From Paraburkholderia aromaticivorans (GTDB lineage Bacteria; Pseudomonadota; Gammaproteobacteria; Burkholderiales; Burkholderiaceae): a stretch of 64,000 nt of DNA. The stretch lies in NCBI RefSeq assembly GCF_012689525.1, contig NZ_CP051516.1, positions 930,001 to 994,000 of the forward strand, written 5' to 3'. A program made the position numbers and the translations under genes. Positions within the stretch are counted from its first letter, which is position 1. Each line of letters begins with the position of its first letter. Positions 5,555 to 45,460 of the stretch are shown one piece after another. A model generated the notes under the pieces. The model saw only the letters and a program-made list of their open reading frames with translations, did not search any database and was not told the DNA's origin.

Positions 5555-5974
5555 TCAATACAACACCATCTGCGTACACCGAAACAGCGCCATCGTCTTG
5601 CCGTTCGGATCGGTGACCGTGGCGTCCCACACTTGCGTGCTGCGCCCAAGATGCACGCCCGTCGCGACCGCGCGGATCGTTCCCTCCGTCGCCGTGCCGA
5701 GAAAATTGCTTTTCAGCTCGATGGTCGTGAAATTGCGCGCCGTCTCCGGCAAGTGGGCGAGGCAGGCGTAGCCGCAGGCGGTGTCGGCGAGACCGATCAC
5801 GGTGGCGGCATGCAAAAAGCCGTTCGGCGCGAGTAATTCCTTGCGCACGGTCAATTCCGCGGTCAGGACGCCTTCTTCCAGCGACAGCACATGCACGCCC
5901 AGCAAGCCGGGCAACGAGCCTTTCTGGCGTTCGTGGAGATGTTCGACGGTGCATTCCGGGCGGAGTTTGCTCAT
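5555..5974 (-). CDS. PaaI-type hotdog-fold thioesterase
   Basis: 139 aa from the ATG at 5974 (MSKLRPECTVEHLHERQKGS). The frame extends upstream to 6052, but the extra residues are unlike the family. The hotdog/4HBT core is visible as LPGLLGVHVLSLEEGVLTAEL, followed by NGFLHAATVIGLADTACGYA near residues 49-68, the region where PaaI-like enzymes place their catalytic Asp or Asn. The later part NFTTIELKSNFLGTA and ATGVHLGRSTQVWDATVTD is also typical. It should hydrolyse acyl- or aromatic-acyl-CoA thioesters; the substrate is not evident. It converges with the DoxX gene and is divergent from parA. Confidence 0.82.
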   Translation of the reverse strand: MSKLRPECTVEHLHERQKGSLPGLLGVHVLSLEEGVLTAELTVRKELLAPNGFLHAATVIGLADTACGYACLAHLPETARNFTTIELKSNFLGTATEGTIRAVATGVHLGRSTQVWDATVTDPNGKTMALFRCTQMVLY

Positions 5975-6195
5975 GAAATTCGGGTCCTCGATGGAAAAAT
6001 CGGCGGGGCACCACAGCCGTTTACCCGTTTGGGGGCTTCGGCCAAAGTGCATTTGTCGATATTATCAACGGCTGGATCCAGAGGTGGGCCCGAACCCGGC
6101 ACGAGTCCGGCGCGAATCCGGGCACACTTGAGCATGTCAGAGCAACTACGCGGCAAACCGGCTGGCGGCGCCCAGCCTTCTTTCCGGGAGAATTC

Positions 6196-6834
6196 ATGAC
6201 GGTGATCGTGGTGGCGAATCCGAAGGGCGGCGTGGGTAAAAGCACGCTGTCGACCAATCTGGCCGGCTATTTCGCCGCGGCCGGCGAATGGGTCGCATTG
6301 GCGGACCTGGACAAACAGCAGTCCGCGCACGCGTGGCTGTCGTTGCGGCCCGACACGCTGCCGGCCATCGAAACCTGGGAAGTCAATCAGGACGCGCCGG
6401 CCAAACCGCCCAAAGGCCTGGAGCACGCGGTCATCGACACGCCGGCCGGGCTGCACGGCAATCGTCTGAGTATCGCGCTCGACCTGGCCGACAAGGTGAT
6501 CGTGCCGCTCCAGCCGTCCATGTTCGATATTCTCGCCACCCAGGAATTCCTCGAGCGGCTGGCCAAGGAGAAGGCCGTCAGGAAAGGCGCGATCGAAATC
6601 GGCGTGGTCGGCATGCGCGTCGATGCGCGCACGCGCTCGGCGGAGCAACTGCATCGTTTTGTCGAGGGGTTGAAGCTGCCGGTGCTGGGCTTTTTGCGCG
6701 ACACGCAGAATTACGTGCAACTCGCGGCCCACGGGCTGACCCTGTGGGACGTCGCGAAAAGCCGTGTGGAGAAGGATCTGGAGCAGTGGCAGCCGATTAT
6801 CGAATGGACTAACGGAAGCGGCAAGAAGGGATGA
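6196..6834 (+). CDS. Orphan ParA/MinD-family ATPase
   Basis: 212 aa, short for chromosomal ParA. It has a deviant Walker A KGGVGKST near residues 11-18, VALADLDKQQSAHAWLSLR (Walker A' Asp region) near 33-51, and VIDTPAGLHGN as the Walker B-type segment. No parB-like gene or obvious centromere repeats lie beside it. That size class (ParA-like proteins of about 210 aa) includes plasmid partition, chemotaxis-cluster and cellulose-cluster positioning ATPases, so the cargo is unknown. The start is supported by GGGAG 8 bp upstream. It is divergent from the thioesterase and is followed by 199 bp without a gene. Confidence 0.85.
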   Translation: MTVIVVANPKGGVGKSTLSTNLAGYFAAAGEWVALADLDKQQSAHAWLSLRPDTLPAIETWEVNQDAPAKPPKGLEHAVIDTPAGLHGNRLSIALDLADKVIVPLQPSMFDILATQEFLERLAKEKAVRKGAIEIGVVGMRVDARTRSAEQLHRFVEGLKLPVLGFLRDTQNYVQLAAHGLTLWDVAKSRVEKDLEQWQPIIEWTNGSGKKG

Positions 6835-8490: not shown

Positions 8491-9366
8491 TCAGGCGGGC
8501 AGATAGGCAAGGCGCACATAAATCGGCGCGAACGGTTCCGCCTGGGTGATTTCGACGAGCGTTTCGCGGCACAGTTCGAGCATGGCGATGAAATTCACCA
8601 CCACCACCGGCACGCCCTTGCTCGTGTCGAACAGGTCGCAGAATTCGATGAAGCGCGCGTTCTGCAGCTGCCGCAGGATCGAGCTCATATGCTCGCGCAC
8701 CGACAACTCTTCGCGCGAAATCTTGTGATGCTGGACCAGCTTGGCGCGCTTGATCACGTCGGCCCACGCGGCGCGCAGGTCTTCGCTGTTCACGTCCGGA
8801 AAACGCGGCGTGATGCTTTGCTCGATGTAGACCTCGGCGCGCAGGAAATCGCGCCCGAGTTGCGGCAACTGGTCGATACGCTGTGCAGCAAGCTTCATCT
8901 GCTCGTATTCGAGCAGGCGCCGCACGAGTTCGGCGCGCGGATCTTCGGCTTCGTCGCCGCTGTCGGCCTTCTTCACCGGCAGCAGCATGCGCGACTTGAT
9001 CTCGATCAGCATCGCGGCCATCAGCAGATACTCGGACGCGAGTTCCAGATTGGTCTGGCGCAACTGGTCGACGTAGCCGAGGTATTGCACGGTGACGTCC
9101 GCCATCGGGATGTCGAGCACGTTGAAGTTCTGCTTGCGGATCAGGTACAGCAACAGATCCAGCGGTCCTTCGAACGTTTCGAGAAACACCTCGAGCGCGT
9201 CCGGCGGGATGTACAGGTCCGTCGGCAGCTTGAAGAGCGGCTCGCCGTACAGGCGTGCAAAAGCAATGCCGTCGACGGTGTCCGGGGTCGAATCGGTGGC
9301 GGGCGCGGCGAGCGCGGCGTCGGCGGGGGGCGGCGGCGCGCCGTGGGCCTCGTCGGCGTGACTCAC
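8491..9366 (-). CDS. scpA: Segregation and condensation protein A (ScpA)
   Basis: 291 aa, GTG start. This is the kleisin subunit of the SMC-ScpAB condensin. Visible are FEGPLDLLLYLIRKQNFNVLDIPMADVTVQYL (N-terminal helical domain, residues about 69-100), LASEYLLMAAMLIEIKSRMLLP, and the C-terminal winged-helix part ending in EPFAPIYVRLAYLPA. The first 40 residues are Ala/Pro-rich and poorly conserved. It starts 4 bp after the stop of the DUF3460 gene, with no clear Shine-Dalgarno of its own, so translation is probably coupled. scpB is not seen nearby. Confidence 0.92.
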   Translation of the reverse strand: MSHADEAHGAPPPPADAALAAPATDSTPDTVDGIAFARLYGEPLFKLPTDLYIPPDALEVFLETFEGPLDLLLYLIRKQNFNVLDIPMADVTVQYLGYVDQLRQTNLELASEYLLMAAMLIEIKSRMLLPVKKADSGDEAEDPRAELVRRLLEYEQMKLAAQRIDQLPQLGRDFLRAEVYIEQSITPRFPDVNSEDLRAAWADVIKRAKLVQHHKISREELSVREHMSSILRQLQNARFIEFCDLFDTSKGVPVVVVNFIAMLELCRETLVEITQAEPFAPIYVRLAYLPA

Positions 9367-11759: not shown

Positions 11760-14700
11760 ATGACCACGGACGTTTCCACTCAACCTCCCGTGCAGCCTCC
11801 CGGCGCTCAACCGCCAGGACAGCCGCCGGGACAACAGCCGCCACCCGAGGCGCCGCCGCCCAGGCGCCGCCTCGGCCGGTTGCTGCTGAAAACGTTCGCG
11901 TGGATGGTGGCCGTGCTGGTGCTGTTGCTCGCGTCGGGGGTGGGTTTGCTGTACGGCGCGCTGACGACCGAGCGCGGCACCGCCTATGCGTGGCAGGCGG
12001 CGGTGAAGCTGCTGGGCGGCAAACTGAGCGGCACGCTGGAGCGCGGCGCGCTCGCCAACGGCCTGCAATTGCGGCAAGTACGCTGGCGCAGCCTCGACGG
12101 CAGCGGCACCGATATTCAGATCGACCGTGTGGCGGGCCATTGGGCGCTCGCGCGCGAACCGTGGCGATTCACCATCGATTATCTGCATATCGGCACGGTG
12201 GACGCGCGTATCGGTTCTTCGTCGTCGAGCAGCAGCGGGCCGGTGAAGCTGCCGCGGGACTTGCGTTTGCCGATGCAACTCGACGTCCGCGACGTCCAGG
12301 TCGACAAGCTGCTGCTGCGTCAGGGCGCGTCGACGACCGAATTCTCGCGCTTCGACTTTCATGGTCGCAGCGACGGGCGCCATCACGAGGCCGCGATCGA
12401 ACGGCTGGACACGCCGTTCGGCGCGGTGACGGCGGCCGCCAAACTCGACGGTGTGCGGCCGTTTCCGTTGAGTGGGGACATCGGCTATTCGGGGAAGGTG
12501 AACGACGAGGCGGTGCAGGTGGGCGGCCATCTGAGCGGCTCGTTGGAGAATCTCATCGCGGAACTCGATGCTAGCGGCATGAAGCTCGCCGGTCATGCGC
12601 GGGTCGAGGCTACGCCGTTCGGCGACGTGCCGCTACAGCGCGCCACGCTGACCTTCGACCACATCAACCCACAGGCTTTTGCGCCCGGTGCACCGCTGGC
12701 CGATCTGGCCGTGCGGGCGGAGTTGCAGCCGGTGGGGCAGGGTGCGGCGGGGGAAGTTGTGCTGGGCGCGAGTGGGGTAGCCGGGGCGAGTGCCGCGAGC
12801 GCGACTGGCGCTGCGCGCGGGGCAGTTGCTGCAAGTGGGGCGGAGGCAGTGAGAAAGGCCGCGAGTTCGGAGAGTACTGGTAATGCCACGAACACCGCCA
12901 ACACCGCCAACACCGCCAACACCGCCAACACCGCCAACACCGCCAACACCGCCAACACCGCCAACACCGCCAGCGGGCGCATTGCCTCAAGTGCAGTCGG
13001 TAGCGGCCGCGTTGCCAGCGAAAGCGCTGTCGCGGACGCAAGTAAAGCCGCCAGCACGACACAAACGCATGCCGCCACAAACGGAAAAAGCAACACCCAA
13101 CCCGCCGCAACTTTCGCAGTCGCCGGCCACGTTTCGATCGTCAACGCCAAACCCGGCGCGATCGACCAGAACCTGCTGCCGCTGATCGACGCCAACGCGG
13201 ACGTGCGGCTCGACGCCCAGGCGCAGCGCATCTCGAATCTGAACGTGCGGCTCGTGAAGAATGCCACGCTCACCGGCGCCGGTACGCTATCCGGCAAGCG
13301 CGGACAGTTCGATCTACAGGTCGCCAACCTCGACCTGAACGCGCTGCAAGCGACGGTGCGGCCCACGCAGCTCTCCGGCCCCATCGGCGTGCGCCTGAAC
13401 GACGACGTGCAGAGCCTCACCCTCGATCTCGCCGACCCGAAAGCGGCGCTGCGCGCTCAAGGCAAAGTGACATTCGATCCCGCCCGCATGAGCTTCAACG
13501 ACGTGCGCATCACGTCGGGTAAAGGCCGCATCGATCTGTCCGGCGCGCTCAAGCACGACGCGAATTCCACCTACAACCTGAAAGCGCAACTGACCGATTT
13601 CGATCCGTTGACGCTGACTTCGCAGATGCCGTCGCGCAAGCCGGTAGCCGAAGCGGCACCGGCGGCGAGTCGCGCGAAAAACGGCAAAACCGCACAGGCT
13701 GCCGCCGCGCAAGCGGGCAGCACGGCCGGCGCAAAGTCCGCGGCGCCCGCCGACAAAGCCGCCGCCGCCGTGAAAAACACCGCCAAGGCGGCTGTCAAAA
13801 CCGAAGTAGTCGAGCGCAAAACGCCGCCGCCGAAGAAACGCGGTGCCCCGCCTGCCCGCAAGATCGAGGCGCGCGTGACCGGCACGCTCACCGCGGCCGG
13901 CATGCTCGGCCCGGTCTTCACGACCAAGGCCGAATTCAAGCTCGGACCGAGCGTCTACGACGGCCTGCCGTTGACCGGCGGCGGAACGATCCAGTTAGCG
14001 GGCTCGCGGATTCTGCCGAGCCGCGCAAACCTCTCGGTCGCGGGCAATCAGGTGGATCTGCAAGGCAGCTTCGGCGCACGGGGCGACCGGCTGAAATTCC
14101 GCGTCGACGCGCCGGAACTGGAGCGCCTCGGCTTCGGTCTTGCGGGACTCATCGCGGCCGATGGCGACGTCACCGGCTCGTTCGCGCATCCGAACGTCGT
14201 GCTGAACTACAAGGCGGACAGCGTGGTGTTCAGCAGCAACCGCATCGGCCATGCGGAAGGGCACGCGGAACTGCGCGACGGTGCGAACGGCGCGCTCGTC
14301 TTCACCACCGACGCGCACAATCTCAGCGCGGGCGGCGTCGATCTGAGTACGCTCACGGCGCGTCTGTCCGGCACGCGCGCCAATCACACGCTCGAGGCCG
14401 CGGCCACCGGCAAGCTGCAGGACCGTCCGCTCGATCTCACGCTCGCCGCCAACGGCAAGCTGACCGAAGCGCGCGACGGTACGCGCTGGGACGGCACCGT
14501 CACGCGCCTGCAGAACCGCGGCACACCTGCGTTGAATCTCGAGTCGCCGCTCGCCGTCAGCGCCGGGCCGGACCGCCTGACGCTCGGCACGACGCGGCTC
14601 ACGCTCGAAGGCGCGGTGCTGAGCCTGAAAACCTTTGCCTTCGATCACGGCAAGGTTCAGTCGGCAGGCAGTCTGACCGGCATCTCAGTCGCGCGTCTGC

Positions 14701-26892: not shown

Positions 26893-26964
26893 GGCCTTTC
26901 CTTGCTTTGTTAGTGGTCTATTAGCGTTGCCCCTGTGCGGGGCGGCACCTACTTTTCTTTGCCG
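26893..26964 (+). repeat. Left arm of a perfect 72-bp inverted repeat flanking the IS
   Basis: Identical to the reverse complement of 28626-28697 over all 72 bases. It lies outside the IS terminal repeats, 8 bp from the IS end. It looks like a dispersed intergenic element rather than part of the transposon. Confidence 0.95.
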
Positions 26965-27000
26965 GCGGTGTGTGTCAAGGTAGTTGTCGCCAGAACCGCG

Positions 27001-28023
27001 TTACGCTGCCTGCCTGTACATTTTGGCTGAGGCCGAGGTTCGTTCCGGATTCAGATAGACCGCGTCTGTCAGGTGCCAGTTGCGGATGGCCCCTGACCAG
27101 CGCGCCGGGTTTTGCATGCGCGCGCTGCGGTACAGCGCACGCCGTCGGGCCAGCAGGTCGTTGGCTTCGCCGCGATGCCGCTGGCCCGGGCTGACATACT
27201 TCAGGCCGCTGTGGCAGTGCTCTTCGTTGTACCACTGCACGAAGCGCTGCACCCATTCCCGAGCCGCCTCCAGCGTGTCGAACGGCTGCTCGGGCCACAA
27301 CGGACAGTACTTTGCCGTGCGGAATAGCGACTCGGCAAACGCGTTGTCGTTGCTCACGCGCGGCCGGCTGAACGAAGGCTGCACACCGAGATCGATCATC
27401 GCCGCGCGCATGGTGGCACCTTTCATCGCACTGCCGTTATCCGAATGCAGCACCAGCGGCCGCCCGGCGAGGCCTTCACGCAAACATCCCTTGGCCAGCA
27501 GGACGCTCGCATGCTCGGCCGACTCCTGCTCCCAGACCTCGTTCATCACCAGTTTGCGGCTGTAGATGTCCTTCATCATGTACCAGTAGAAGTACCGGCC
27601 CCTGACTGTGGTCGGCATCCACGTAATATCCCAGCACCACACCTGATTCGGACCCTGCGCACAATGCGTCGTGAGCGTGCGTCGTCGCGGGGCTCGCGCA
27701 CGGCCTCGACGCTGGCTTTGTCCTGCCGCTTTCAGCACCCGGTAAAACGTCGATTCGGATGCCAGATAAATCCCTTCATCCGCCAGTTTCGGCACAATCT
27801 GGTGCGGCGTCAGACTCGCGTAGCCCGGGCGGTTGGCTGCGTCGAGCACGGCCTGACGCTCGGCCTCACTGAGCTTGTTGGGCGGTGCCGCACGCTTCAC
27901 CTGGGTGCGCCCGTCCTGCGGCGACAGGCGCCAGCGCTGGACACTGCGCACGCTGAGCCCCAACTGCTCGCATGCACGCGAGCGGCGTGCCCCATGCTGT
28001 ACCGCTTCATCGATCAACTGCAT
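27001..28023 (-). CDS. IS3-family transposase OrfB (DDE integrase core)
   Basis: 340 aa. It starts with an HTH-like segment (RSRACEQLGLSVRSVQRW). The rve-type catalytic core carries the DDE residues in VWCWDITWMPT, LHSDNGSAMKG and NAFAESLFRTAK, followed by the IS3-type YNEEHCHSGLKYVSPGQRH. The -1 frame is open from the slippery A-run at 28092 through to this start, so a fused OrfAB transposase can be made by frameshifting. Translation may also start at ATG 28023. Confidence 0.92.
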   Translation of the reverse strand: MQLIDEAVQHGARRSRACEQLGLSVRSVQRWRLSPQDGRTQVKRAAPPNKLSEAERQAVLDAANRPGYASLTPHQIVPKLADEGIYLASESTFYRVLKAAGQSQRRGRARAPRRRTLTTHCAQGPNQVWCWDITWMPTTVRGRYFYWYMMKDIYSRKLVMNEVWEQESAEHASVLLAKGCLREGLAGRPLVLHSDNGSAMKGATMRAAMIDLGVQPSFSRPRVSNDNAFAESLFRTAKYCPLWPEQPFDTLEAAREWVQRFVQWYNEEHCHSGLKYVSPGQRHRGEANDLLARRRALYRSARMQNPARWSGAIRNWHLTDAVYLNPERTSASAKMYRQAA

Positions 28024-28049
28024 GGCTTCATCGCGATCCGGGCTGCTGA

Positions 28050-28550
28050 TCAGTCTTCCTCTTCCTTGCCCCAGATCGCTTCGGCTTTTTTTCGCAGGTT
28101 CAGCAACGCCGCTGCCTCCGCCCGCGCGGCATCGCTGCGCCTGAGCTGGCGCTCCAGCTCACGGATGCGTTTGTGAGCGGCCTTTGCTTCATTGCGCTGG
28201 GCAGCCGTTGGCTTTGTTTCAGGCGCTACGTTGGCCTGCTCGCACGCCTCGCGCCACTGCCGGATCTGCTCCGGATAGATGCCCTTGCTGCGACAGTACT
28301 GGGAGGTCTCGGCCTCGTTGAGCGACGCCGTCTCCAGCACCACCCTGAACTTGTCGGCGCTTGACCACTGATCGCTGGTTCTGCCATTACCCGGCATGAA
28401 TACCCCTGCATCCCTTGCATGTTGCCGCCAGGTCCGTAGCGTCACCGTGGTGATGCCCGTCGCTCCCGCCAGCTCAACGACCGCACGATTAAACGGCGGC
28501 ATCATCTGTTTGATTACCCACTCCCGGGTTTCCGCTGAATAGCGTTTCAT
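28050..28550 (-). CDS. IS3-family transposase OrfA (DNA-binding)
   Basis: 166 aa. Two helix-turn-helix-like regions are visible: VVELAGATGITTVTLRTWRQ near residues 24-43, and a second around NEAETSQYCRSKGIYPEQIRQWREA (77-101). They are followed by a leucine/coiled-coil-like helix (KAAHKRIRELERQLRRSDA). A slippery run of seven A followed by G at 28092-28085 near its end is the expected -1 frameshift site to OrfB. The start codon lies 50 bp inside the right IS end. Confidence 0.9.
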   Translation of the reverse strand: MKRYSAETREWVIKQMMPPFNRAVVELAGATGITTVTLRTWRQHARDAGVFMPGNGRTSDQWSSADKFRVVLETASLNEAETSQYCRSKGIYPEQIRQWREACEQANVAPETKPTAAQRNEAKAAHKRIRELERQLRRSDAARAEAAALLNLRKKAEAIWGKEEED

Positions 28551-28625
28551 CTTCCATTCGCTGTCCGCCCCCCATCTTTACACTAATCGGTTCGGGTGAG
28601 GCGACAACTAGCCTGACATGGAGGG

Positions 28626-28697
28626 CGGCAAAGAAAAGTAGGTGCCGCCCCGCACAGGGGCAACGCTAATAGACCACTAACAAAGCAAGGAAAGGCC
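28626..28697 (-). repeat. Right arm of the perfect 72-bp inverted repeat flanking the IS
   Basis: Exact reverse complement of 26893-26964. It lies 7 bp outside the right IS end and 49 bp beyond the stop of glk. Confidence 0.95.
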
Positions 28698-40061: not shown

Positions 40062-41570
40062 ATGTCTACCATCACGTCCTCGGTGAATAGCGCGACGGCC
40101 AACGCGCAAAGCCAGGTCCAACAAGCAGCGCAATCCATTATCAGCGGTTCGACCGGCAATTCGTCGATGGATGTGTCGAGCCTGGTCTCGGCGCTCGTCA
40201 ATGCCAAAACGGCGGGTCAGGCGGCGTCACTGCAGGCAAGGCAGACCACCGACAACACCACCTTATCCGCCTACGGCGCGCTCACTTCGGCGTTGTCCGC
40301 CTTGCAGGCGGCGATCAAGAATCTGTCGGACGGGACCACGTTGTCCACCTTCGCGGCCACCGCGAGCGGCAAAGGTCTGGACCCGAAAGCGGGCCCGGGC
40401 GCGGTGGCTGGCAGCTATACGATCGACGTGACGCAGATCGCCTCGTCGCAGAGTCTTGCGTCGGCGGCGTTCGGCGCGACGACCCAACTCGGCACCGGCA
40501 CGTTGACGATCTCGGTCGGCGGCAAGTCGATGGACGTCTCGATCGACAGCACCAACAACACGCTGAGCGGTATCGCCACCGCGATCAACAAGGCGTCCAA
40601 CAACCCGGGCGTCACGGCGACGATCGTGACCGGCACCGGCGGCGCTCACCTCGTGCTGCGCTCGGCCACCACCGGCTCGGCCAACACGATCAACGTGGCC
40701 ACCAGCAACGTGCAGAACGACGCGGGCTTGTTGAGCCTCGGCGTCACCTCGACGCCCGGCGCGAACGGCGGGGCGTCCACGATCGTGTCGTCGGACGCTG
40801 GCAATGCGTGGCGTCAGAGCGAAGTGGCGCAGGACGCGTTGCTCACTATCGGCGGGATCGCGGCGCGCAGTGCCAACAACGCCGTCACCGATGCGATTGC
40901 CGGCGTGACGCTGAACCTGTCGAGCGCGTCGGTCAGCAATCCGCAAACGCTGACGATCGCGCCCGATACCACCGCGCAGAACACGGCCATCACGAACTTC
41001 GCGAACCTGTACAACACCGTCGTCACCACGATCAGCAAGCTGTCCTCGTACGACAAATCGTCGAAGACCGGCGGCGCGCTGCTCGGCGACTCGACGCTGC
41101 TGACGGTCAAGAATGCGCTGGCGTCGATCGTCGCCGGCGGCGTGGGTAAGGGCACTTCGGTGGTGAGCCTCGGGCATATCGGCATCACGCTGAAGGGCGA
41201 TCCCGCGGACGGCACGCTGGTCGTCAACAACGCGAAACTGACGACGGCGCTCAACACCAGTCCGGCGCAAGGTGCCGCCTTGTTCAACTCGACCGACGGT
41301 GTCGGCGCCAAATTGAACAAGAGCATCAACGAGTTCACGCGGACGGGCGGCATCATCGACACGCGCAACAGTGCGCTCAACGCCGACCTGAAGAGCGTCA
41401 CCGCGCAGCAGGGCAAGCTGAGCGACTACGCCACGCAATTGACGAAGCAGTATCAGAGCCAGTTCACTGCGCTGAACACGTTGATGGCGAGCATGAACAA
41501 CAACTCGGCCTACCTGACGGCGCTATTCGGCGGCTCGAAGAGCGCGGGCGCGCTGGCGACCAACAAGTAG
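40062..41570 (+). CDS. fliD: Flagellar hook-associated protein 2 / filament cap FliD
   Basis: 502 aa. FliD N-terminal domain: SSMDVSSLVSALVNAKTAGQAASLQARQTTDNTTLSAYGALTSALSALQAAIKNL near residues 34-88. The middle domains read SYTIDVTQIASSQSL and LTISVGGKSMDVSIDSTNNTLSGIATAINKASNNPGV. The C-terminal coiled-coil region contains NKSINEFTRTGGIIDTRNSALNADLKSV and YQSQFTALNTLMASMNNNSAYLTALFG, as expected for the cap protein. It caps the growing filament and directs flagellin assembly. No fliC, fliS or fliT flank it here, which is unusual. GGGGAG lies upstream of the ATG. Confidence 0.93.
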   Translation: MSTITSSVNSATANAQSQVQQAAQSIISGSTGNSSMDVSSLVSALVNAKTAGQAASLQARQTTDNTTLSAYGALTSALSALQAAIKNLSDGTTLSTFAATASGKGLDPKAGPGAVAGSYTIDVTQIASSQSLASAAFGATTQLGTGTLTISVGGKSMDVSIDSTNNTLSGIATAINKASNNPGVTATIVTGTGGAHLVLRSATTGSANTINVATSNVQNDAGLLSLGVTSTPGANGGASTIVSSDAGNAWRQSEVAQDALLTIGGIAARSANNAVTDAIAGVTLNLSSASVSNPQTLTIAPDTTAQNTAITNFANLYNTVVTTISKLSSYDKSSKTGGALLGDSTLLTVKNALASIVAGGVGKGTSVVSLGHIGITLKGDPADGTLVVNNAKLTTALNTSPAQGAALFNSTDGVGAKLNKSINEFTRTGGIIDTRNSALNADLKSVTAQQGKLSDYATQLTKQYQSQFTALNTLMASMNNNSAYLTALFGGSKSAGALATNK

Positions 41571-41635: not shown

Positions 41636-41832
41636 GTCAATGCGGCAAACGCACATTGAAGCGGAACGTCACGAGCCGCGCGAGCAGGATGAAGGCGGTG
41701 GCGATCAGCACGCTATAGACCGTGTCGAAATCGATGTAATCCAGCAGCACATACAGCCAGCAGCCCACGAACGCACACGTCGCGTAAGGCCGTGAGTCGC
41801 GCAGAATCAGCGGCACTTCGTTGCGCAACACG
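41636..41832 (-). pseudogene. Stranded 3' end of a TRIC/UPF0126 channel gene (left copy of 197-bp direct repeat)
   Basis: It matches 44064-44260, the 3' end of the intact gene, without indels. There is one mismatch (41781) in the first 189 bp and a few in the last 8. It encodes the last 63 or so residues (NEVPLILRDSRPYATCAFVG...) without the N-terminal two thirds. The frame runs upstream into unrelated sequence, so no functional protein is expected. It marks the left junction of the DUF262 segment. Confidence 0.93.
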
Positions 41833-42149
41833 ACTTTTTGATCGGTGCGCGTGTCTGCCAGCAAGAGCAGACCCGGCTAGCGCGTGCGCGGCATCTTTGC
41901 AACTTCGGGTAATTGCGGGAGGTTGCGGCCAAATGGTTCGGTTTTTCTCGCAAGGAGCGAACCCAAATGAGGTCGACGTTCGCCAAGGCCGCGGTTGAGC
42001 CTATCGGCCAAACGCCACCTGAATTCACCGAAGATTCATCGGCTGGATCGCTGTAGCTTTCTGAAAACGTGGAAATCCCCCAGTAATTGTCATATTTGAT
42101 TGCAGGATTTGCCGTTTGCTTAATTTTCCTTGCAAGCGGCGTTAGCATC
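41833..42149. other. Left part of the island without a recognised gene
   Basis: 317 bp. It contains a small potential hairpin (GTCTGCCAGCAAGAGCAGAC at 41852-41871) and AT-rich stretches near 42085-42130 that could carry the promoter for the downstream genes. A 114-codon minus-strand frame crosses it into the repeat but has no family-like features. Confidence 0.5.
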
Positions 42150-42263
42150 ATGGAGGTCCTGCTTCGTCATTCTCAAATGCCCGAGAAGATCGAGCTTGAG
42201 CCGGTTTTACTTGCGCTTGCTCACGAGTCGATAAGAGCACTTGTTATGACGATAAAGGAATAA
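42150..42263 (+). CDS. 37-codon ORF immediately upstream of the DUF262 gene
   Basis: ATG at 42150, TAA at 42261-42263, encoding MEVLLRHSQMPEKIELEPVL... and ending ALVMTIKE. It ends 2 bp before the TTG start of the DUF262 gene and contains that gene's AAGGA Shine-Dalgarno. It has a weak ribosome site of its own. It could be a small partner or antitoxin, a leader peptide that couples translation, or a chance frame. No family is recognised. Confidence 0.35.
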   Translation: MEVLLRHSQMPEKIELEPVLLALAHESIRALVMTIKE

Positions 42264-42265
42264 TT

Positions 42266-43984
42266 TTGTCCAAAGCAGAAGCATCCGTAGACGAACTTGT
42301 ATCGATGATTGAGCGTGGCGAACTTCGACTGCCTGAAATGCAACGCCAGTACGTTTGGCGTTCAACGCGAGTCCGCGATTTGCTCGACTCTCTTTATCGT
42401 GGGTATCCCTCCGGCGCGATCCTACTCTGGGAAACAAATGAAGAGATCGCGTTGCAGGATTTTGCGGTCGGCCAAAGCGCGAACCCGTATAAGAGCACGC
42501 GTCTGCTGCTCGACGGCCAACAAAGGCTTACGTCGCTGTCTGCGGTAATCAGAGGTGAGCCAGTCCGGGTGCGCGGGCGCCTACGGCCAATCGATCTCCT
42601 TTTTAATCTCGAACACCCTGACCAGCTTGCCTTGGTGACCGAGGTAGAAGAAAACGGCTCGAACACGGAAGACGTTGAAGAAGAGGACGACATCACGAGT
42701 GAGGACGCGGACTCTGATGAAGATGAACTTCTCAAGCGCTTTAACAAAATGACCTTTGTAGTATCCACGAGAAAGCTGGAACAGATGCCTCAGTGGGTGA
42801 AGGTCTCTGAGGTATTCAAGAATGACAGTGATGCGCCTTTTCTAAAACACGCCGGCGTTTCAGACTTTGACGACCCGCGTTATGAGCGGTATAGCCAGCG
42901 TTTAGCGAAACTGCGAGCCATCCGAAAATATGTGTATCGGATGGACGTACTAGAACGGACGTTGTCGTACGATGAAGTCACCGAAATTTTTGTTCGAGTG
43001 AATTCGTTAGGCGCGAAGCTCCGAAGTTCTGATCTGGCACTTGCTCAAATTACCGCTAAGTGGCGACATTCTTTGCAGATTTTTTTGGATTTTCAGGCGG
43101 ATTGTGCAAAAAGGGGCTTTGACCTGGATCTTGGGCTTCACCTTAAGAACTTGATGGCATTTGCGACGGGTCAGTCGCGCTTTCTCACAGTGGGAAGCCT
43201 GTCGGCTGACAAACTGAAGGCCGCCTGGAAGAGTTCCTGTGAAGGTATGCACTTCGCTTTGAATTTTCTGAAGAGCAACGTTGGGATCGAAAGTCCGGCT
43301 CTTCTATCTTCGCCTTTTCTGTTGGTGGTCCTTGCTTATTTTGGGCACCTGCATAAGTACAGAGTGAAATCTCAGGAGGCCACTCAGCTACGTCATTGGA
43401 TACTGGTAGCCAATGCCAAAGGGAGATTTTCTCGCGGATCGAGCGAGACGATCCTTGATCAAGATCTCGCAATCATCCGGGACGGCGGCAATGTCAGAGA
43501 CCTCATCGACAGGCTAAGATTGCAATTCGGTCGCCTCGACATCGCCCCGGAGGAGTTGGAAGGGCGGAGTCAGCGCAGCGCGCTTTTCAAAACGATGTTC
43601 CTCGCTTTTCGCGCAGCGGACGCAAAAGACTGGCACTCAAACCTTGCGATTGCGTTGGATCACTCGGGGAATCAGCATCAACTGCAGTTCCATCACATTT
43701 TTCCCAAGAAACAACTTTGCAGGGACTACTCTTCGCGAGAAGCCGATGACATTGCAAATTTGGCGTTTATCGGTGGAAAGACAAATCGTGCGATCAGTGA
43801 CAAGCTACCGTCAAAATATCTGCCGTCCTACATTGCAGAACACGGCCGGGAGCCATTTGTCGCTCAGGCAATTCCGACGAAGGACTCATTGCTCGAGCTG
43901 TCGGCGTACAAGCAATTTCTCGTCCAACGACGCAAATTGATCGCCGCCCGGCTTAATGATTTTTTGGAAACCAGCCGGACATGA
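42266..43984 (+). CDS. DUF262 protein with C-terminal HNH-like nuclease domain (GmrSD/type IV restriction-like)
   Basis: 572 aa from a TTG start with AAAGGA 6-7 bp upstream. The N-terminal DUF262 domain has LPEMQRQYVW near residues 22-31, LLLDGQQRLTSL with the nucleotide-related DGQQR motif (83-87), and IFVRVNSLGAKLRSSDLALAQI (241-262). The C-terminus (about 474-520) has a DUF1524/HNH-like pattern: QFHHIFPKKQL, then DIANLAFIGGKTNRAISDKLPSKYL. This domain pair is that of GmrSD-type, modification-dependent restriction enzymes and related phage-defence proteins. Residues about 126-154 form a strongly acidic stretch rich in Asp and Glu. Codon use (AGA, ATA, TTA) and base composition differ from the neighbours, suggesting recent transfer. 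The target is unknown. Confidence 0.85.
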   Translation: MSKAEASVDELVSMIERGELRLPEMQRQYVWRSTRVRDLLDSLYRGYPSGAILLWETNEEIALQDFAVGQSANPYKSTRLLLDGQQRLTSLSAVIRGEPVRVRGRLRPIDLLFNLEHPDQLALVTEVEENGSNTEDVEEEDDITSEDADSDEDELLKRFNKMTFVVSTRKLEQMPQWVKVSEVFKNDSDAPFLKHAGVSDFDDPRYERYSQRLAKLRAIRKYVYRMDVLERTLSYDEVTEIFVRVNSLGAKLRSSDLALAQITAKWRHSLQIFLDFQADCAKRGFDLDLGLHLKNLMAFATGQSRFLTVGSLSADKLKAAWKSSCEGMHFALNFLKSNVGIESPALLSSPFLLVVLAYFGHLHKYRVKSQEATQLRHWILVANAKGRFSRGSSETILDQDLAIIRDGGNVRDLIDRLRLQFGRLDIAPEELEGRSQRSALFKTMFLAFRAADAKDWHSNLAIALDHSGNQHQLQFHHIFPKKQLCRDYSSREADDIANLAFIGGKTNRAISDKLPSKYLPSYIAEHGREPFVAQAIPTKDSLLELSAYKQFLVQRRKLIAARLNDFLETSRT

Positions 43985-44063
43985 CGAAGCAAGAGAAGGT
44001 AAAGTTTTTGCGAATTTTCTAGAATTTACTGTCAGGTTAGGTGCGGCTCACGTGGCTTAAGGC

Positions 44064-44260
44064 GTCAATGCGGCAAACGCACATTGAAGCGGAACGTCAC
44101 GAGCCGCGCGAGCAGGATGAAGGCGGTGGCGATCAGCACGCTATAGACCGTGTCGAAATCGATGTAATCCAGCAGCACATACAGCCAGCAGCCCACGAAC
44201 GCACACGTGGCGTAAGGCCGTGAGTCGCGCAGAATCAGCGGCACTTCGTTGCACAGCACG
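44064..44260 (-). repeat. Right copy of the 197-bp direct repeat
   Basis: Same sequence as 41636-41832 with one mismatch in the first 189 bp. It begins one base beyond the stop codon of the TRIC gene and supplies its last third. It is the right junction of the DUF262 segment. Confidence 0.93.
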
Positions 44261-44688
44261 TCGCGAATCACGCCGCCGAAAACGCCCGTCAGCACGCCCA
44301 TCATCACCGAGGTGAACCACGGCATTTGGGCGTCGTGCGCGATCGACGTGCCCGCGATGCTGAACAGGCCAAGCCCAATTGCATCCGCCACCAGCAGAAC
44401 CCGCTCGGAAATCAGGCGCGACGTCATTTTCAACAGCGTCGGCGCGAACAGCGACATCACGAAGATCGCGATCAGATAACCCTGATGCTCGACCCAGTAG
44501 AAGGGCCGCCGCTCCAGCAGCACGTCGCGCAACGTGCCGCCGCCGAAGGCCGTGGCGATCGCCACGAGAAACGTGCCCACGGCGTCGAGCCGGCGGGTTT
44601 TGGCTTCGATGAAACCGGAAATGGCGTACGCGAAAATCGCCAGCGCCTCCATGATGGTCAGCGCGAGCGTCAGCCTCGGATGGATCAC
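44065..44688 (-). CDS. TRIC/UPF0126 (YadS-like) trimeric cation channel family protein
   Basis: 207 aa, seven predicted helices built as an internal duplication. The first half has AVGTFLVAIATAFGGGTLRDVLLERRPFYWV near residues 36-66; the second has MGVLTGVFGGVIRDVLCNEVPLIL. The repeated GGG/GGxxRDVL motif is the family hallmark. Homologues are trimeric potassium-type channels. The last third lies in the 197-bp repeat shared with 41636, so this end appears to have been supplied by the inserted segment. It starts 10 bp after the smr stop on the same strand. Confidence 0.88.
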   Translation of the reverse strand: MIHPRLTLALTIMEALAIFAYAISGFIEAKTRRLDAVGTFLVAIATAFGGGTLRDVLLERRPFYWVEHQGYLIAIFVMSLFAPTLLKMTSRLISERVLLVADAIGLGLFSIAGTSIAHDAQMPWFTSVMMGVLTGVFGGVIRDVLCNEVPLILRDSRPYATCAFVGCWLYVLLDYIDFDTVYSVLIATAFILLARLVTFRFNVRLPH

Positions 44689-44698
44689 CGTGGCTCCG

Positions 44699-45460
44699 TC
44701 AGGCTTTGGCGTGAGCCGGCATTGCGCCCGGCTGCAACAGCACGACCACCGCGCCGGCGCCGCCGTCGTGCGGACGTGCCTGGCAGAACGCGATGACCTC
44801 GGACTTCTGCACGAGCCACGCGCGTACTTTGCCCTTCAACACGGGCTCCTTGCCGATCGATCCCAGACCCTTGCCGTGAATCACGCGCAAACACCGCAAG
44901 CCGCGCTTCACCGACTCGCGGATGAATTCCGCCAGCGCCTCGCGCGCTTCCTCGCGCCGCATGCCGTGCAGGTCGATTTGCGCCTGCACGATCCAGTCGC
45001 CGCGCCGCAGTTTGCGCACGACTTCCTGACTCACGCCGGGGCGGCAGTACGACAACGTCTCGTCGGTTTCAAGCAGGATTTCGGGATCGAACTCGTCGGA
45101 GATCGCTTCGTGCAGCACGGCTTCTTCGTCGAGTTGGGTTTGGACCGGCAGCGGCGGCGGGGGATTGCGCGGCAGCGTAGCGCGCGGCGGCACGGCTAGC
45201 GGCGCGACCGCGCCGATCTCGCGGCGAAACAGATCGGCGTCCGCCGAGGCTTCGCGCTGCACGACCGCAGCGGCTACCCGTTCGCGCTCGCGCCGTTGCG
45301 TGTCGACTTTGAGTGCGTCGCGCAACGCGCCGAGGCCGGCGAGGCCGGCCGCCGGATCGAGCTTCGGCTCGGCGGCGGCGGGCGCAGCCGGTTCGGGCGC
45401 GGGCCGCGCGACGGCTCGCGCGCGCTTCGGTTCGCTCGGATGGGGCTGGTTTTTCGGCAT
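44699..45460 (-). CDS. Smr-domain (MutS2-type) nuclease family protein
   Basis: 253 aa. The first 150 residues are Ala/Pro/Arg-rich and charged, typical of YdaL/SmrA-like proteins. The Smr domain is at the C-terminus: IDLHGMRREEAREALAEFIRESVKRGLRCLRVIHGKGLGS (about 166-205), with the LDLHG and HGKG motifs of the nuclease fold, and EPVLKGKVRAWLVQ afterwards. Such domains nick DNA or cleave RNA at stalled or collided ribosomes; the substrate here is unknown. It lies between the trxB terminator and the TRIC gene. Confidence 0.87.
   Translation of the reverse strand: MPKNQPHPSEPKRARAVARPAPEPAAPAAAEPKLDPAAGLAGLGALRDALKVDTQRRERERVAAAVVQREASADADLFRREIGAVAPLAVPPRATLPRNPPPPLPVQTQLDEEAVLHEAISDEFDPEILLETDETLSYCRPGVSQEVVRKLRRGDWIVQAQIDLHGMRREEAREALAEFIRESVKRGLRCLRVIHGKGLGSIGKEPVLKGKVRAWLVQKSEVIAFCQARPHDGGAGAVVVLLQPGAMPAHAKA

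Follow-up and report, generated by a model that had tools for sequence, protein, structure and literature searches.

A Duplicated TRIC Gene End Around a DUF262 Gene in Paraburkholderia aromaticivorans, at a Core-Bounded Site That Occasionally Holds Defense Genes

Introduction

The background to the locus described here includes integrase-borne genomic islands and cis-mobilizable elements (CIMEs), the latter being without an integrase of their own. Sites of another kind are the core defense hotspots cDHS1 and cDHS2 of Pseudomonas aeruginosa, in which different defense systems, more than 20 per site, are described between the same core genes (PMC10250203). According to the same source, 29% and 47% of the cDHS1 and cDHS2 sites hold no detectable mobile gene, homologous recombination through the flanks has been suggested, and a known immune system is found in 15.2% of the cDHS2 sites. 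As to the entry of DNA, conjugation of molecules with one-sided homology into Escherichia coli was reported to yield duplications in 56 of 60 Lac- clones; the 14 lacZ duplications that were sequenced measured from 109 to 950 bp, and are attributed by the authors to a molecule that was shortened, recircularized, and integrated by a single crossover (PMC3240628). A third comparison is provided by the displacement arrays of type VI secretion system (T6SS) effector-immunity modules in Vibrio (PMC5361080).

The locus of Paraburkholderia aromaticivorans shares features with all three. Like the single-crossover (Campbell-type) products at lacZ of E. coli, it has foreign DNA enclosed by a partly duplicated gene end in direct orientation, without a recombinase; however, the E. 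coli case is a laboratory construct under selection, whereas this one is natural and carries a defense-type gene (PMC3240628). Like the Vibrio arrays as described, it has a new module beside an old allele, gene-end remnants, and no known integrase, although the anchor in Vibrio is the region upstream of the module and here it is the end of a membrane-channel gene (PMC5361080). Finally, as at cDHS1 and cDHS2, varied defense genes are found between fixed core genes (PMC10250203). In the open-licence PMC literature, to which this weak statement is confined, no description was found of a TRIC-linked defense site or of a gene-end scar at defense genes.

Anatomy of the Locus

The source genome (G000) has a size of 10.8 Mb in 4 contigs, and the window, that is, the whole stretch of DNA that was analyzed, comprises 64 kb of it (G000:C3:930001-994000). 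A direct repeat of 197 nt and 98% identity joins positions 41636-41832 and 44064-44260 at a spacing of 2428 bp, and this pair of TRIC ends is the sole direct repeat of at least 60 nt found in the window by a search with 16-base seeds. The homologous core is 189 nt long (41636-41824 and 44064-44252, both read on the reverse strand); in TRIC it spans codons 147-207 and the stop codon, together with two bases of codon 146 on one side and a single base past the stop on the other, and it is equal at 188 of the 189 positions, with the only mismatch at 41781. The original prediction of a TRIC end directly repeated 2428 bp apart is therefore correct, the true homology being these 189 nt. Past 41824 the left copy diverges from TRIC: the base of the intact gene is present in 39 of 39 relatives at repeat position 190, and in 36 of the 39 compared at position 193. 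At the mismatch, the left copy has the common base (34 of 39 relatives) and the intact gene a rarer one (4 of 39).

The left copy ends within TRIC and constitutes an orphan 3′ end. The right copy is the 3′ end of the intact TRIC/UPF0126 gene (44065-44688, reverse strand; 207 amino acids; PF03458 Gly_transporter, E 3.1e-45), which it completes, so that the description of one completing copy and one leftover fragment is confirmed. Direct repeats of the target gene, one complete segment and one truncated, are thus present at both ends of the foreign DNA, and the alignment to the sister-species locus L002 shows zero native loss. The cargo between them (41825-44063; 2,239 bp) has a GC content of 0.51 versus 0.63 for the whole window, and it holds one gene, at 42266-43984 on the forward strand, which encodes a DUF262/HNH-like protein of 572 amino acids; both the AT-richer DNA and the gene agree with what had been foreseen, the latter through a match to PF03235. 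The left part of the cargo (41825-42265), also with a GC content of 0.51, is without an assigned gene and without a match at E 1e-3 in the other 143 genomes of the genus, and the right end (43985-44063), according to the sequence comparison, abuts the TRIC stop codon. No RNA family was found in the segment at gathering score. The native neighbors are a fliD-like gene on the left (40062-41570, forward strand; Pfam FliD_N/FliD_C) and a Smr-domain gene on the right (44699-45460, reverse strand; Pfam).

Elsewhere in the window, a transposase element at 26893-28697, IS3-like by reading, contains open reading frames (ORFs) of 166 and 340 amino acids and is bounded by perfect terminal inverted repeats of 72 nt. 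Near-full copies are located at four other places in the genome, and the 72-nt end is also found solitary or paired in many copies (both among the 40 of 142 candidates that were scored); some of these pairs lie about 700 bp apart and resemble short non-autonomous derivatives.

Empty Sites and Rarity of the Duplication

In 29 relatives (L002-L030) the TRIC 3′ end occurs once at the site and the gene that comes after it is fliD, GST, lysR, or ugpC, with the Smr gene adjoining TRIC on the other side, and the DUF262 gene is absent; in L017 a transposase gene intervenes between the TRIC end and the next gene. The uninterrupted TRIC gene followed directly by fliD-side sequence, whose search had been advised, was found in L002, L004, L007, and others. 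When one repeat copy is omitted, the flanks of the window align to the sister species L002 as an uninterrupted block of 3.6 kb (92.1% identity), which indicates that no native DNA was lost. Outside the orphan copy, the adjacent 60 nt are 0.87 identical to L002 and 0.77 to L004, also a sister species, while those beyond the intact TRIC reach 0.65 at best, with none of 82 relatives at 0.7 or above (random pairs, 0.53). From this comparison it follows that the orphan copy is the native end and that the intact gene bears the end adjoining the cargo. The segment is a foreign insertion, as originally proposed: inserted DNA, an empty counterpart of the site, and a gene end in duplicate are all seen. 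Since the copies are nearly identical, the event is recent.

The duplication is also rare. Among the matches listed for 144 genomes of the genus (122 with any match; four candidates scored per genome in the DNA search), a second TRIC end occurs only in G000 and in a second genome, G091. In 398 genomes of the family (250 with a protein match at E 1e-15), two TRIC copies were listed in G000 only, G091 being outside that listing, and each of 60 loci of other genera contains one copy in about 6 kb. An old duplication common to related species is rejected by these distributions. Apart from the two repeat copies, the TRIC matches listed in the source genome by DNA search are short (53-71 bp). Relatives were sampled at one genome per species, and in this sample no donor genome was found.

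The DUF262 Gene

The DUF262 domain with a DGQQR motif is characteristic of the GmrSD type IV restriction enzymes as described in PMC4619093. The product of 42266-43984 matches PF03235 (GmrSD_N) with an E value of 1.5e-29, is assigned to HEC-05 by PADLOC, and has the DGQQR motif at residue 83. It shares with them the arrangement in a single long protein with an HNH-like C-terminus (FHHIFPKKQ...NLAFIGGKTN), a stretch that was spotted by eye; Pfam gave no match to DUF1524 at E 1e-3. It differs from the published enzymes in that the E/D of the described motif is H and in that DUF1524 is unreported at this threshold (PMC4619093). The DGQQR motif and the HNH-like stretch make a GmrSD-like nuclease probable, and, judging by its domains, the protein is probably a modification-dependent nuclease of the restriction type. 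It is weakly similar to the DUF262 protein of PDB entry 7p9k (E 8.9e-13; best stretch, residues 4-98), which we take to be BrxU.

The gene is widespread, with 68 loci in a contig collection (identity up to 80% for full-length matches and 82% for a partial match), and a relative at 72% is located elsewhere in the genome G077. DNA homology at these loci stays inside the gene, save for a few bases ahead of its start: in 63 of 69 loci, those aligned by DNA, nothing aligns beyond 42244-43962, and a general mobility of the gene by means of flanking repeats was rejected. Among the 60 loci with enough flank, a flanking repeat of any sort was found in 3, one of which is tight and direct. This is L156, from a proteobacterial metagenome-assembled genome, in which the DUF262 relative lies between apparently intergenic direct repeats of 140 bp (80%) and 81 bp (85%), at L156:6402-6785 and 8651-8863. 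In L151, L160, and L167 the DNA of the relatives matches in two pieces, being either split by an insertion or deprived of an internal part. A plasmid source of the segment was discarded, as the DUF262 gene alone was matched, at 64-66% identity, in two plasmids.

A Second Insertion at the Same Place

The genome G091 (locus L031) has the same architecture with other cargo. Its TRIC repeat measures 435 bp at 95.2% identity and starts at the TRIC stop codon, so that the inner breakpoints of the two cases differ (189 versus 435 bp). The left part of the locus reads ugpC, a gene of 116 amino acids, the TRIC fragment (5967-6401), an AbiU/AIPR gene, small proteins, and a Tle1-like gene; the right part continues with a second ugpC end and a second copy of the small gene (repeat 13349-14062), a 294-amino acid ORF without family, a PfkB/deoxyribosyltransferase gene, a QueC-like gene, and the intact TRIC. 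The ugpC end and the small gene form a second duplicated block of 714 bp at 90.9%.

Over both blocks, the left copies of G091 are 95.1% identical to the species G028 and 92.7% to the right copies, which suggests that the right-hand block may come from another lineage. In the approximately unbiased (AU) test, the copies of G091 as one clade are not rejected (p 0.156 jointly; 0.088 for block A); the TRIC block (block B) alone groups left and right copies with support 56/38, and a larger TRIC tree places the left copy with G028 with support 99/70. The identities of G091 suggest a different origin for its two copies, which the AU test (p 0.156) does not prove; the copies of the window differ by one mismatch.

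The Place Behind the TRIC Stop Codon

The place behind the TRIC stop is an accessory site, bounded by core genes, which occasionally holds a defense gene. The distance between TRIC and ugpC varies from 56 bp to 16.7 kb in the 84 genomes with both on one contig, values that are approximate because the ends of the ugpC matches vary. Among 88 loci, one per genome, the ORFs in the covered part of the gap match lysR in 31, fliD in 25, and GST in 21; the remaining loci have transporters, flagellin, hydrolases, or nothing. Defense-type genes were found in at least 5 of the 88: DUF262/HEC-05 (window), AbiU (G091), DRT3a/3b (G116), a dCTPase (G077), and an Mrr-type nuclease (G010). This count is a minimum, given that the analysis extended 1.5 kb downstream at 29 loci and about 5 kb at most of the remaining ones, and that PADLOC covered 15 cargo proteins. 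The other cargo at the same site whose existence had been anticipated is therefore present, as different defense genes in other species and, in G091, between similar repeats.

Three genomes beyond the window and G091 (those with DRT3, dCTPase, and Mrr) have unrelated defense genes behind TRIC, and it is a trait of core hotspots that different genomes carry unrelated systems within one pair of core genes. At cDHS2 a known immune system is reported for 15.2% of the sites; the TRIC site has defense-type genes in at least 5 of 88 loci, and its other loci contain metabolic, regulatory, or flagellar genes or nothing (PMC10250203).

Several individual loci deserve a description. In G116 the site has a DRT3a/3b pair of two reverse transcriptases (L091:15442-18670). 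In G077 the dCTPase-type gene adjoins a Mutator-family transposase between ugpC and TRIC (L093:11711-15009). In G130 (L032:8373-9221) TRIC matches over codons 138-207 only, directly beside the Smr gene, and lysR and GST are also in pieces; this locus is a case of gene decay at the same place.

How the Segment May Have Entered

The insertion-duplication is real and rare, and lies at a core-bounded accessory site. The explanation that we place first, at somewhat less than an even chance, is that a fragment with the DUF262 gene and a TRIC end was recircularized and entered by a single homologous crossover. The donor would have belonged to the same species or to a very close one, and foreign DNA would have lain immediately behind its TRIC stop. 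A DNA fragment carrying the DUF262 gene and the last part of TRIC would have been broken or trimmed within TRIC, which would set the inner edge of the repeat, and the joining of its ends would have given a ring. One RecA-type crossover in TRIC would then have brought the ring into the chromosome with no dedicated insertion enzyme, so that the recipient's own TRIC end stayed behind as a fragment and the intact gene acquired the end that arrived with the ring. Ring, crossover, and donor are all inferred. The duplicates of 189 and 435 bp are variable in length and both fall within the experimental range of 109-950 bp given in PMC3240628; different inner edges are what random breakage is expected to produce.

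The outer edge, which coincides with the stop codon in both cases, is the weak point of the single-crossover explanation. Between relatives and their nearest kin (82 cases) the TRIC coding end has a median identity of 0.92 and the 60 nt behind it one of 0.63, reaching at least 0.7 in 31 of the 82, so that at such closeness an unoccupied donor would leave a longer repeat. Mere divergence behind TRIC is insufficient for the window, where 188 of 189 bases are equal, and its stop-codon edge must therefore reflect cargo right behind the stop of the donor, or chance, or an element carrying exactly that end. In G091, with copies 5% apart, divergence alone could account for the edge. For G091, the single-crossover explanation must also assume either that one ring carried two pieces of cargo or that there were two events.

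That the segment is a small integrative element of CIME type, with the TRIC 3′ end as attachment site and an integrase lost or acting in trans, is unlikely. Such an element would suit the direct repeats around AT-rich cargo and the replacement gene end, whose limit in each case is precisely the stop codon, and the 99 matches to PF00589 in the whole genome (E 1e-3) could act in trans. However, there is no PF00589 match in the 64-kb window, as had been stated at the outset, and no integrase among the cargo ORFs. An HMM search of all ORFs of at least 50 amino acids found no integrase ORF in 96 stretches (L001-L096; 89 genomes of the genus, one stretch without TRIC), nor in 60 loci of other genera (4241 ORFs). 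The surveyed stretches measured 1.5-20 kb, and the HMM was built from 11 integrases of the source genome, so that distant types could be missed; two positive controls were matched in both surveys. Against an element speak also the different inner edges (189 versus 435 bp, in only two cases) and the shortness of the further TRIC matches listed in the genome. An attachment site borne by a phage is not indicated, as viral contigs contained no close TRIC relative and the segment was unmatched in a phage collection. With no recombinase in the window, in the stretches of the 89 genomes, or in the 60 other loci, and with TRIC broken at different points, the original reading as an integrase-type island in a gene 3′ end is not sustained; of its three entry options, homologous recombination fits best, and an integrase in trans or a lost one fits less well.

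As a separate observation, the tyrosine recombinase matches on contig C1 often appear as sets of three adjacent genes with equal scores (e.g., G000:C1 1025191-1027602 and 2331292-2333703), presumably akin to recombinase-in-trio elements.

Homology-facilitated illegitimate recombination, in which a linear fragment would pair homologously at its TRIC end, be joined illegitimately at its opposite end, and leave a duplication in place of a deletion, is distinctly improbable. It would begin from the same starting material with one-sided homology, and it has been proposed for the stepwise insertion of T6SS effector modules in Vibrio (PMC5361080); nevertheless, this process is described as generally giving an insertion with a deletion of similar size (PMC3240628), and nothing is deleted here with respect to L002.

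A local tandem duplication or staggered-break insertion of the TRIC end, with the gap filled by foreign DNA, is very doubtful: the identity of 188 of 189 bases, at which a donor copy is indistinguishable from a local duplicate, and the AU test that does not reject the copies of G091 as a clade are in its favor, but it requires that in two species one edge should have hit the stop codon accidentally, and the left copies of G091 resemble another species more closely, by identity, than they do the right copies.

Biological Significance

The building of core defense hotspots free of mobility genes, and homologous movement, are named as future work in PMC10250203. Ring closure and one crossover may be a recurrent natural route by which defense genes reach a core-gene site, though we consider this generalization rather unlikely; the newcomer would be added beside the resident allele, which would stay in place, and the gene-end repeat left by each arrival would permit its loss by RecA, giving a reversible immunity without a mobile element. 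If a ring entered by a single crossover, loss of the segment by recombination between the repeats should depend on RecA. The scars of the two natural insertions match the one obtained experimentally from ring formation and one crossover, and they offer a concrete, testable route by which a hotspot may be built.
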